From positions 1-49,209 of the forward strand of contig JABHZL010000025.1 of the NCBI GenBank assembly GCA_018656645.1: DNA of 49,209 bases. The letters are read 5' to 3'. The DNA comes from Phycisphaerae bacterium. Lineage in GTDB: Bacteria; Planctomycetota; Phycisphaerae; Phycisphaerales; SM1A02. This document shows positions 5,868-30,155 of this stretch, in pieces. The notes below the pieces were generated by a model. That model had not been told where the DNA came from. It saw only the letters and a program-made list of their open reading frames with translations, and did no database searches. Numbering within the stretch: the stretch's first letter is position 1; the number at the start of each line of letters is the position of its first letter. The position numbers were made by a program, and so were the translations under genes.

Positions 5868-7025
5868 CTAGCGTACCAAGACTTCGCGGTAAAGTTTGTC
5901 TAATTCTTGCACCATTTTGTCTGCAGCGAATTGTTCTTTACAAAACGCTCTTCCCTCATTCCCAAGGTTCATTCGTTTATCTGGATTAGCTTGTAGTTCT
6001 AAGACTGCCACGCGAAGTGCTTCGTGATCACCAACATCAACGAGATACCCAGTTTTTCCTGAAATGCACACTTCTCTTGTTCCATCAACATCGTTGGCGA
6101 TCACTGGCTTAGCGCCGAGCATTGCTTGCACAACCGTGCGGGGCAAACCCTCACGATAACTTGGATGAACCAATACGTCCATTGCAGCAATATAATTTGC
6201 GATCGTTTCAGGTTGCACAAGGCCAGTGAAAATGACTTGCTTTTCAATACCCATCTCCCTGATTCGTTGTTCCAACCTTTCTCTCCACCATCCGTCTCCA
6301 ACCCAAAGAAGTTTCAACTTTGGGCTGTTTCGTAAAACCTCTCCGAGTGCATCTAAAACATCGTCGTGCCCCTTGTGCTCTGCAAGTCTTGAGACAGTGC
6401 CAACAACAAAATCATCTTTGTCTATTCCAAGTTCTTGTCGCATTGCATCTCCATCTCTCTGTGGAGATAAATACCGATCGACTTCCATTCCACTATAAAT
6501 TGTGGAGAACTGCTTTTGTTTTCCAATCCCCTTGGCAAGCGATTGATCTCGCATTGCATCTGCAACACACGCAATTTTGTGACACCGCTTCGCGGCCCAT
6601 CTTTCTGATGCAACGTAGAGGGTATTTCGCCAAGCTTTCTCATACGGGTGAAATGGAAGCCCATGTATCGTGTGTACTACGCAAGGAACGGAAAGATTCC
6701 ACGCAGCTGCCCTTCCGATGATGCCAGCCTTAGATGAATGAGTGTGCACAACATCCGGCTTCCAAAAACGTATGAGCCGTTTTAAATCCCTGTAACATCG
6801 ATAATCTTGCAACGGCGCTAGTTGCCTGACGAGATTCGGTGTTTCTATAAGATCAATTCCGCCGTGGGACGCCACCCTATCTCTCAACGACCCTTCTGGT
6901 CCGTAAATCGGCCCGTATACGAGTGATACTTCATTTCCTGCATCTGCTTGACCCTCACAAGAAAGAATCGTGTTTTCCTGCGATCCGCCTAGAATGAGCC
7001 GAGTTGAAATGTGCATGATCCGCAT
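5868..7025 (-). CDS. GT4 family glycosyltransferase
   Basis: The start at 7025 (MRIMHISTRL) gives 385 residues; an in-frame ATG at 7016 is also possible. A longer reading from a TTG at 7085 would translate the intergenic palindrome and is unlikely. The GT-B fold is shown by the glycine-rich GGSQENTIL loop near residue 13, HTHSSKAGIIGR and HTIHGLPFHPYEK. The C-terminal domain has GTVSRLAEHKGHDDVL, LWVGDG and the nucleotide-sugar site HPSYREGLPRTVVQAM. The usual EX7E pair is EX7Q here. It transfers a sugar from a nucleotide donor, probably at the cytoplasmic membrane face, for a surface glycan or a small glycoside. It is co-directional with the LmbE-type deacetylase, suggesting they modify the same product. 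Confidence 0.85.
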   Translation of the reverse strand: MRIMHISTRLILGGSQENTILSCEGQADAGNEVSLVYGPIYGPEGSLRDRVASHGGIDLIETPNLVRQLAPLQDYRCYRDLKRLIRFWKPDVVHTHSSKAGIIGRAAAWNLSVPCVVHTIHGLPFHPYEKAWRNTLYVASERWAAKRCHKIACVADAMRDQSLAKGIGKQKQFSTIYSGMEVDRYLSPQRDGDAMRQELGIDKDDFVVGTVSRLAEHKGHDDVLDALGEVLRNSPKLKLLWVGDGWWRERLEQRIREMGIEKQVIFTGLVQPETIANYIAAMDVLVHPSYREGLPRTVVQAMLGAKPVIANDVDGTREVCISGKTGYLVDVGDHEALRVAVLELQANPDKRMNLGNEGRAFCKEQFAADKMVQELDKLYREVLVR

Positions 7026-7029
7026 ACAC

Positions 7030-7094
7030 GCATCATAATTGACCCGCGACCAACTTGACCACGGGTCAAGTTGGTCGCTGGTCAATTATGATGC
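7030..7094. repeat. 31-bp-arm inverted repeat filling a divergent promoter region
   Basis: Left arm 7030-7060 and right arm 7064-7094 are reverse complements at 30 of 31 positions, around a 3-base centre (ACG at 7061-7063). The single mismatch is C7045 against T7079. The repeat occupies nearly all of the 73-base gap between the GT4 start (7025) and the truA start (7099), with exactly four bases on either side. Within each arm the motifs TTGACC, GCGACC and GGTCAA recur. Because the flanking genes diverge, this is not a transcription terminator. It is either a regulatory/promoter palindrome or a remnant of a small mobile palindrome. Confidence 0.9.
7032..7092. promoter_or_regulatory. Symmetric pair of TATGAT -10-like boxes (candidate bidirectional promoter)
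   Basis: TATGAT occurs at 7087-7092 on the plus strand. Through the inverted repeat it also occurs at 7037-7032 on the minus strand. Each hexamer ends six bases before the A of the facing start codon (7099 for truA, 7025 for the glycosyltransferase). If they are -10 elements, transcription would begin at or next to each ATG, giving leaderless messages. No convincing -35 hexamer lies at the usual 16-18 base spacing. This is inference from position and sequence only. Confidence 0.4.
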
Positions 7095-7098
7095 AGGA

Positions 7099-7875
7099 AT
7101 GGCAAGATATCGGTTTATAGTTGCATATGACGGAACAGCGTTTCATGGATGGCAAAAGCAAGCTCCACCCATTGGGGAAAGCCTACGGACGGTACAGGAA
7201 GACCTAGAATTGGCGATACGTGAAGCCACCAGGCAGCCTATTAGGCTTCACGGCGCATCGAGGACCGACGCAGGAGTCCACGCTCGTGGGCAAGTGGCAG
7301 TCTTTGATGCAGATACAGATATTGACCCTTTTAGAATGCTATGTGCTGTCAATTCAAAATTACCAAGCGATATCAGAATCGTTAACGCTGACCTCGTGCC
7401 CTTCGAATTCAACCCAATTGGAGATTGTATTTCCAAGGGATATCGCTACATGCTTGCCCATGGCTGCAAGGACCCAAGAAGGAAACCTCTCTTTGATCGT
7501 CACTTCGTTGCAACAACAGCGTATGAACTGGACCTTGAGCGTATGCAAGAAGCATGCGAACTTCTTATTGGAGAACATGATTTCGCAGCGTTCACCAAAA
7601 TAAACCATGGTCGCGAAACAACCATTCGCAGAATTGATGCTTGCTCTGTTGAAACTGTTGCACCATGGCGAATTGCTATTGATGTTTCAGGAAATGGTTT
7701 TCTCTGGAACATGGTTCGTATTATTGCTGGCACCCTTGTCGATGTGGGCAGAGGAAAAACAAACATTTCAGACATCTCAGAAATTATCGCATCGAAAGAT
7801 AGGCAACGTACAGGAATTACCATGCCGCCAGAAGGCTTGTCACTTGAATGGGTTAAGTATGACGCTGATCAATGA
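7099..7875 (+). CDS. truA: tRNA pseudouridine(38-40) synthase TruA
   Basis: The ATG at 7099 gives 258 residues beginning MARYRFIVAYDGTAFHGWQ, the standard TruA N-terminus. A TTG at 7039 would add 20 residues encoded by the palindrome and is rejected. The catalytic aspartate is D57 in ASRTDAGVHARGQV. Other conserved blocks are SKGYRYML, GEHDFAAFTK and GNGFLWNMVRIIAGTLVDVG. The enzyme isomerises uridines 38-40 of the tRNA anticodon arm to pseudouridine. There is no spaced Shine-Dalgarno sequence (AGGA directly abuts the ATG), compatible with a leaderless message from the -10-like box at 7087. The 3' end overlaps the convergent gene by seven bases. Confidence 0.95.
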   Translation: MARYRFIVAYDGTAFHGWQKQAPPIGESLRTVQEDLELAIREATRQPIRLHGASRTDAGVHARGQVAVFDADTDIDPFRMLCAVNSKLPSDIRIVNADLVPFEFNPIGDCISKGYRYMLAHGCKDPRRKPLFDRHFVATTAYELDLERMQEACELLIGEHDFAAFTKINHGRETTIRRIDACSVETVAPWRIAIDVSGNGFLWNMVRIIAGTLVDVGRGKTNISDISEIIASKDRQRTGITMPPEGLSLEWVKYDADQ

Positions 7876-9002
7876 CCAAACAAGTTTGTCATCGCGAAGT
7901 ACCCTTGCTCTTGAAAGAACGCAAGTGCTTCTTCAACAGTCTTAAAGATCTTCGTGGCAGTCTCAGTAATAAATGGTGATGGTGGCTTCTCTGGTTTCCA
8001 CACAACATACACTTCCTTCGTGTGTTCCCAAGCATGCTGAAGCTCGCGTTCAACACCACTTGATAATCCAGGAATACCACCGGGCAACTCTGGCACCAAC
8101 GAGACAATCATGTCAGATTGATCAATCAATCTAAAATCACGCATGTATATTTGTCCATCGATATCACCTGCAATATCAAGGATTTCCCGAACAGAAACAC
8201 GCATCGGCTCCCCATCTATTTTTCCACCAAAAGCGTGCGGTTCTACTTCAATCCAATCTTTACCATTCTTTGCAGCTTCAATACCACGATCAAGCAAGAG
8301 TTTTTCATCAACATCAGCAGGATCAAAAGTAATAAAGTGCTCGGCTAGGGCTGCTCTGAATTGATCTATTTCTGCAAGGACGTCGGGCAAATCCACAACA
8401 TGGCTCATTGGAAAGCTTGGATACACTTTCTTCATGTCATTTCTAGCCACAAGTCGGTAACACGTCTCGGAAGTAGATTGATGTCGACCACGACTTAGAA
8501 CATAAAAACTGTTACGGCAACCGACTGCTTGTGCCATCAGCTCAGTTGCGAGAATTTCTTCTTCCCGCCAAACCATACAATCTTTTAACGTTGCGTCTAT
8601 GTCATGTTCAGCATGAAGACGATCGTGGACAACTTCTATGTTATCTACAAGGCAAATAAACAAATCTGGTTGAAATTCAATGAGTTGGTCAAAGTCGAAT
8701 GCAGGAAATAATCCATGACGCCATCGAAATGTAGCGTGAGTATTCATGATCACGTTGGGATGTTCGCAAAACGGTGACGTTTCAGAAACAATATCTTTTA
8801 TTGCTGCACGTCGCAGTGAGTGCAACCGACTGAGTGGCAAGTCAAGAATTCGACCTTCTCGGATATCTGGTCCTTCTGAATACATCATCTGACCAACATT
8901 GAACACGTCAATGTTTCCACCTCGTTCACCAGCAAGCCGTTCCACCTCTTCAAGGTAAGGCTTTTTGTCCATTCCTATTTGACCTGTAATTACTGTTCTC
9001 AT
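7869..9002 (-). CDS. Two-domain protein: adenylate-kinase-like P-loop domain plus nucleoside deoxyribosyltransferase-like domain
   Basis: The 377-residue product is not a standard named enzyme. The N-terminal half (about 1-190) resembles archaeal-type adenylate kinase. It has a degenerate Walker A (VITGQIGMDKKPYL) and an NTHATFRWRHGLFPAF segment like the dTHa-x-G-x-x-P block, followed by FQPDLFICLVDN. The C-terminal part (about 270-377) has the look of a nucleoside 2-deoxyribosyltransferase-like (Rossmann) domain. It reads MRDFRLIDQSDMIVSLVPE, then SSGVERELQHAWEH, then KEVYVVWKPEKPPSPF. A role in nucleotide or nucleoside metabolism is plausible. Substrates are unknown, and the odd Walker A (Lys-Lys-Pro instead of Lys-Ser/Thr) makes ordinary kinase activity doubtful. 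It is the last gene of the phoU-led minus-strand group. Confidence 0.6.
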   Translation of the reverse strand: MRTVITGQIGMDKKPYLEEVERLAGERGGNIDVFNVGQMMYSEGPDIREGRILDLPLSRLHSLRRAAIKDIVSETSPFCEHPNVIMNTHATFRWRHGLFPAFDFDQLIEFQPDLFICLVDNIEVVHDRLHAEHDIDATLKDCMVWREEEILATELMAQAVGCRNSFYVLSRGRHQSTSETCYRLVARNDMKKVYPSFPMSHVVDLPDVLAEIDQFRAALAEHFITFDPADVDEKLLLDRGIEAAKNGKDWIEVEPHAFGGKIDGEPMRVSVREILDIAGDIDGQIYMRDFRLIDQSDMIVSLVPELPGGIPGLSSGVERELQHAWEHTKEVYVVWKPEKPPSPFITETATKIFKTVEEALAFFQEQGYFAMTNLFGH

Positions 9003-30121: not shown

Positions 30122-30155
30122 AAAGCCCTCGGCAAGTACACTTGCCGAGGGCTTT
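30122..30155. terminator. Bidirectional intrinsic terminator between gcvT and the metzincin gene
   Basis: AAAGCCCTCGGCAAG (30122-30136) and CTTGCCGAGGGCTTT (30141-30155) form a perfect 15-bp stem with a TACA loop. T-tracts follow on both strands (TTTAT on plus, TTTTTC on minus). It lies between the convergent gcvT stop (30106) and the protease stop (30186), so it can terminate both. It is the clearest intrinsic terminator in the window. Confidence 0.92.

Follow-up and report, generated by a model that had tools for sequence, protein, structure and literature searches.

A dispersed REP-like palindromic array probably framed by two leaderless promoters at the truA gene of a Phycisphaerales lineage

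RESULTS

The palindrome upstream of truA belongs to a dispersed repeat family

The palindrome that separates truA from a divergent glycosyltransferase gene in the window, the 49,209-nucleotide stretch of DNA analyzed here, is a member of an extragenic repeat family with scattered copies and not a truA-specific operator. It probably represents a lineage-specific, REP-like array that sits between two face-to-face leaderless promoters, with the two −10 boxes bracketing it. The genome that contains the window (2.0 Mb, 137 contigs) is referred to as G000, and its congeners in the same Phycisphaerales genus (Planctomycetota) as G001–G012.

The geometry of the palindrome (Table 1) was confirmed exactly as the initial annotation had given it: arms of 31 nt paired at 30 positions around a 3-base centre, TATGAT six bases from both ATGs on opposite strands, and four bases between each end of the palindrome and the start codon. 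The sole mismatch is 7045/7079, and the N-terminal extensions read through the palindrome on both strands do look alike, as described. The palindrome is real and far above chance expectation. With matches scored +1 and mismatches −3, it reached an inverted-repeat score of 27, against best scores of 9–13 per sequence in 25 first-order Markov sequences of window length. As single-stranded DNA it was computed to fold into one hairpin of −35.3 kcal/mol (z = −12.4). The window has one other long inverted repeat, a perfect 16-bp one with a 2-nt loop (AAAGCCCTCGGCAAGT..ACTTGCCGAGGGCTTT, 30122–30155), which has convergent genes on either side and looks like a bidirectional terminator.

Table 1. Features of the truA boundary in the window and repeats in the truA gap of congeners
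Feature	Position	Strand	Details
truA (tRNA pseudouridine 38-40 synthase)	7099..7875	+	TIGR00071, 172.8 bits, over cut-off
Family 4 glycosyltransferase gene	5868..7025	-	start MRIMHISTRL kept in G004 and a more distant family member
TATGAT, predicted -10 of truA	7087..7092	+	-12 from ATG 7099
TATGAT, predicted -10 of glycosyltransferase gene	7032..7037	-	-12 from ATG 7025; G004 orthologue TATGCT-N6-ATG
Whole palindrome	7030..7094	none	arms 7030-7060 / 7064-7094, 3-base centre
Repeat core	7039..7085	none	three tandem 15-bp dyads, 1-bp spacers, period 16
Dyad 1 of core	7039-7053		TTGACC.CGC.GACCAA
Dyad 2 of core	7055-7069		TTGACC.ACG.GGTCAA
Dyad 3 of core	7071-7085		TTGGTC.GCT.GGTCAA
truA gap, G011			TTAATTGACTCGGAGTCAATTAA
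truA gap, G008			GGAGTCTGACCCC tandem
truA gap, G001, G002, G009			GGGTCTGGTAC...GTACCAGACCC type
truA gap, G005			GGGGTCTGACC...GGTCAGACCCC
truA gap, G006			GGGGACTGTCCCC
truA gap, G007			GGGGTCAGACCCC

A BLAST search with the surrounding 131 bases returned further copies on other G000 contigs and in G004, including the orthologous truA boundary. The family is built from 15-bp dyads, TTGACC-N3-GGTCAA, that follow one another at a 16-bp period. Pattern and BLAST searches, on which the copy counts of this family rest, put the number of arrays at roughly 20 in G000 and roughly 22 in G004. The arrays lie within intergenic gaps or at their margins. The initial annotation had proposed looking for the arm elsewhere in the genome and at the truA boundary of relatives; about 20 scattered loci in G000 share the unit and the 16-bp period, and the orthologous site in G004 carries an array. 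A one-and-a-half-unit pattern matched 46 times in G000, 63 times in G004 and 18 times in G011, compared with 0–7 times in the other ten congeners, and the reversed pattern gave 0–1 matches in the first three (one in G000, one in G004).

We decoded 42 arrays comprising 117 units, a few of which are marginal extensions, and most arrays hold two or three units. Usually CGC is the first spacer of an array and GCG the last, so that the whole array is palindromic. The commonest form is 31 bp long and has two units (TTGACCCGCGGTCAA-N-TTGACCGCGGGTCAA), while the window copy has three units in 47 bp. At either end of the window palindrome, the outermost 9 bp correspond to one of the two −10 regions and are absent from most other copies; TATGAT was ruled out as part of the repeat, since it occurs at 5 of 83 outward flanks, at promoters. 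These 9 bp are mirrored in G000 only, the −10 regions of G004 being different from each other (TATGAT, TATGCT), and the perfect outer mirror in the window may reflect arm correction or a chance likeness of two −10 boxes.

Arrays occur in convergent, codirectional and divergent gene gaps. Some lie past the stop codons of convergent genes (secA, leucyl aminopeptidase, and a site beside a probable tRNA gene), others between divergent genes (truA, miaA and one more), and the flanking genes, among them truA, miaA, kdsB, moaB, nuoG, recJ and secA, have no common pathway. This mixture of gap types and unrelated neighbors is what a dispersed extragenic repeat, and not a regulon, is expected to show. 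G000 and G004 have at least 12 array sites in common, and at these orthologous sites the length often changes by a single 16-bp unit between the two species. In some copies, that of the window among them, a departure from the consensus in one half is mirrored in the other (GACCAA/TTGGTC in the window, GATCAA/TTGATC at another locus, L100), which fits either selection for a hairpin or correction of the palindrome by template switching.

The family is restricted to a three-species clade of the genus. In a scan of 181 genomes of the taxonomic family, more than two pattern matches were found in G000, G004 and G011 only, and these three form one clade in a secA tree with support of 100/100. A 257-Gb genome collection yielded 13 exact matches, 6 of them from G004 or G011, where our own arithmetic for 18 fixed bases predicts about 7–7.5 by chance. 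Occurrence beyond the genus was rejected, as the other exact matches and the single matches in family members look like chance.

truA and its divergent neighbor are likely transcribed without leaders

The proposal that both messages begin at the start codon gained support from comparison. A TANNNT box stands at −12/−13 of truA in all 12 species with upstream sequence (TAAAAT, TAAGAT, TACAAT or TATGAT), and it ends about 6–7 nt before the start codon, as at leaderless promoters. In a set of 170 genes whose upstream regions are free, TANNNT at −12 to −15 was found 54 times against about 10 expected (25 against 5 in G000 alone), while Shine–Dalgarno-like 4-mers were in mild excess (35 against 21). 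On the basis of conservation and this general enrichment, truA and its divergent neighbor are likely transcribed as leaderless messages. The TTGACC-like half-sites were rejected as a −35 box, their spacing to the truA TATGAT being 10 or 26 and not 17.

The truA gap holds different palindromes in sister species

The divergent neighbor of truA is a glycosyltransferase gene in G000, G004 and G011 and a PIG-L deacetylase gene in most other congeners. In ten of the 12 species, G000 and G004 included, the truA gap contains a palindrome or a palindrome-derived repeat, of at least five different sequences (Table 1). The initial annotation held that absence from close relatives, with no sign of mobility, would speak against its reading; in fact G004 carries the array and other species carry different palindromes. 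The GGGTCTGGTAC type is likewise dispersed, with 22 sites in G002, and a literature search on GGGGTCAGACCCC found nothing. In G011, TTAATTGACTCGGAGTCAATTAA adjoins the remaining GGGTCAA half-site of an older TTGACC array, beside the truA −10. The gap of G003 contains a decayed remnant only. In G012 both −10 boxes are kept 13 bp apart with no palindrome between them, and the palindrome is therefore dispensable for the promoters. From these sequences, the truA gap looks like a favored landing or holding site for repeats.

TruA of G000 is 61% identical to that of G004, compared with 84% for the glycosyltransferase, 93% for PIG-L and 96% for the gene at 7869–9002; DNA identity to G004 falls near position 7100 and is regained near 7850, and a tree places TruA outside its clade. 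truA looks to have been replaced in place, with the left edge at the repeat array.

Palindromes of sister species flank RAYT genes

Proteins matching Pfam Y1_Tnp (PF01797) occur in G006, G007, G008 and G011. Their best model is the NCBIfam REP-associated tyrosine transposase, below its curated cut-off, and they exceed the Pfam Y1_Tnp cut-off. Palindromes flank the RAYT gene in several of these genomes. In G011, copies of TTGACTCSGAGTCAA at 50451 and 51316 stand on either side of the RAYT ORF (C87:50508–51311); this sequence has 106 sites there and 0–3 in other genomes. The palindrome TTAATTGACTCGGAGTCAATTAA (loci L144 and L164, about 106 sites) is often paired about 35 bp apart and brackets the RAYT gene. 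In G008 the RAYT ORF on contig C7 adjoins copies of GGAGTCTGACCCC, which number 95 there, mostly at a 16-bp period, and 0–2 elsewhere. Tandem GGAGTCTGACCCCAAA in the same genome (locus L150 and contigs C7, C17, C72, C105 and C141) likewise amounts to 95 copies in runs of up to about a dozen units, mostly with the 16-bp period of the TTGACC family. In G007 (loci L161 and L154) a RAYT gene is directly divergent from truA, across the gap that bears repeats in other species.

The units of G000 and G011 are alike at 12 of 15 positions, and this similarity suggests common descent. No Pfam Y1_Tnp protein was found in G000 or G004, the genomes richest in the TTGACC repeat (98% and 96% complete), and a profile of ten RAYTs of the genus matched nothing in either up to E = 10. 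The link to a transposase is thus drawn by analogy. One G000 contig terminates within a TTGACC array (C58:8461–8506); such repeats perhaps break the assembly, and the absent RAYT could sit in a gap of this kind.

REPs are described as extragenic palindromes of small size that sometimes form tandem clusters, every family having a RAYT of its own (PMC3733652, PMC3116915, PMC6006769). The commonest TTGACC form falls within the 20–40 bp typical of them, the window copy being an extended version, and its copies are many, dispersed and extragenic, though modest in number. Neither a GTAG nor a CGTC foot was seen at the 83 outward flanks, where the first 2–3 bases have an A/T bias alone, and no cognate RAYT flanked by the repeat was found in G000 or G004. 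Because no RAYT was found in G000 and the repeat has no such foot, we call the TTGACC family REP-like and not a canonical REP.

DISCUSSION

Judging from the sister-species analogues, we propose that a RAYT-type HUH tyrosine transposase, with the single-stranded hairpin as its substrate, once spread the TTGACC family. The transposase would now be absent from, or unassembled in, G000, and present copies would mostly be inherited in place and altered by gain or loss of units. At truA, the two TATGAT boxes that bracket the array would set the 5′ ends of both mRNAs at the ATG or close to it, and an array would persist at places where it disrupts no −10 and no coding region. If the array influences truA at all, as a spacer, cruciform or insulator, that role would be secondary. 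The earlier suggestion that the palindrome is the footprint of a mobile element is borne out to the extent that it belongs to a dispersed family with RAYT-linked analogues in sister species, which points to mobilization by analogy, no transposition event having been seen. About 20 arrays is a low number for a REP family, and the TTGACC family yielded no clean insertion that could be paired with an empty site, the empty G012 site being that of a species without it.

A strict dyad that abuts a −10 directly in roughly a dozen arrays, and whose sites are kept between G000 and G004, could also be a cooperative operator, with one dimer per 15-bp dyad and three stacked between the divergent promoters to regulate both genes. 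The GGGTCAA half-site that G011 retains by the truA −10, though a different repeat fills the remainder of its gap, would agree with this. We nevertheless regard an operator as quite unlikely. An operator should mark the promoters of a coherent gene set, but many arrays lie between convergent 3′ ends, for example after secA and leucyl aminopeptidase, the flanking genes share no theme, the number of units differs at orthologous sites, and the truA promoter is kept in species without the family. The initial suggestion that one dyad would control both genes is likewise unsupported, given the copies between convergent 3′ ends and the sister species that has the −10 boxes with no palindrome. Slightly less probable still is that the truA divergent promoter requires some palindrome as a structural part, a cruciform or insulator whose sequence has been replaced repeatedly. 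The recurrence of different palindromes in this gap speaks for such a part, as does the secA 3′ gap, where few species outside the array clade have one (a clear palindrome in G003 and G012 only); yet G012 has none at truA and G003 a decayed remnant, and a safe harbor, in which insertion between face-to-face promoters is tolerated, needs no function. A related idea, which we hold to be unlikely though less so, is that the gap keeps acquiring palindromes because a palindrome of any sequence is useful there as a bidirectional insulator or cruciform, that is, domesticated REP-like DNA in which form and not sequence is conserved.

The least probable of these explanations, in our judgment, is an element acting at the RNA level: once transcribed, its hairpin would end transcription or shield 3′ ends, and would do so on both strands. 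The fold is very stable, copies stand right after stop codons and between convergent genes, and one copy (L005) pairs fully with several G–U pairs included. Against this, sense-strand changes in codirectional copies that keep pairing through G–U number 39, compared with 47 of the opposite kind; since the former are not in excess, there is no sign of RNA-level selection. Most copies have no T-run after them, two orthologous copies (L095 and L117) adjoin a separate terminator-like hairpin, and the truA copy lies upstream of both −10 boxes and hence in neither message. Rfam covariance models gave no match at 6500–7600 of the window. A REP-like array between leaderless promoters thus remains our favored explanation, and it is likely a known kind of element in a new form.

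The TTGACC family adds to the REP-like repeats a modular 16-bp palindromic family, apparently orphaned from its transposase, in small Phycisphaerales genomes. The truA gap also offers a natural comparison, in which one divergent promoter with conserved −10 boxes holds varied palindromes or none among sister species, and which allows neutral carriage of such repeats to be weighed against usefulness as spacers. Furthermore, many messages of this Phycisphaerales lineage are predicted from the −10 pattern to be leaderless.

Leaderless starts with a TANNNT −10 beside the start codon are known in Deinococcus and Mycobacterium (PMC12340547, PMC3898074), and the genes studied here resemble them in having TANNNT at about −12 from the ATG and a weak Shine–Dalgarno signal; unlike those cases, the Phycisphaerales starts are deduced from sequence and conservation, and a search for leaderless start-site maps in Planctomycetes found nothing directly relevant in the literature. 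With respect to RAYT-mobilized REPs and REPINs, among which RAYT subclasses with atypical flanking structures have been described (PMC3733652, PMC3116915, PMC6006769), the TTGACC family differs in its symmetric modular 16-bp unit, its lack of a GTAG/CGTC foot, its count of about 20 sites and the failure to find a RAYT in the two genomes richest in it. It resembles them in being short, dispersed, extragenic, clustered or tandem and species-specific, and in that analogous palindromes of sister species in the genus flank RAYT genes. CGTC-type REPs have been reported without a dedicated transposase (PMC3733652); although its sequence is another one and has no CGTC tag, the TTGACC family shares with them a dispersed, extragenic and palindromic character in genomes with no resident RAYT.
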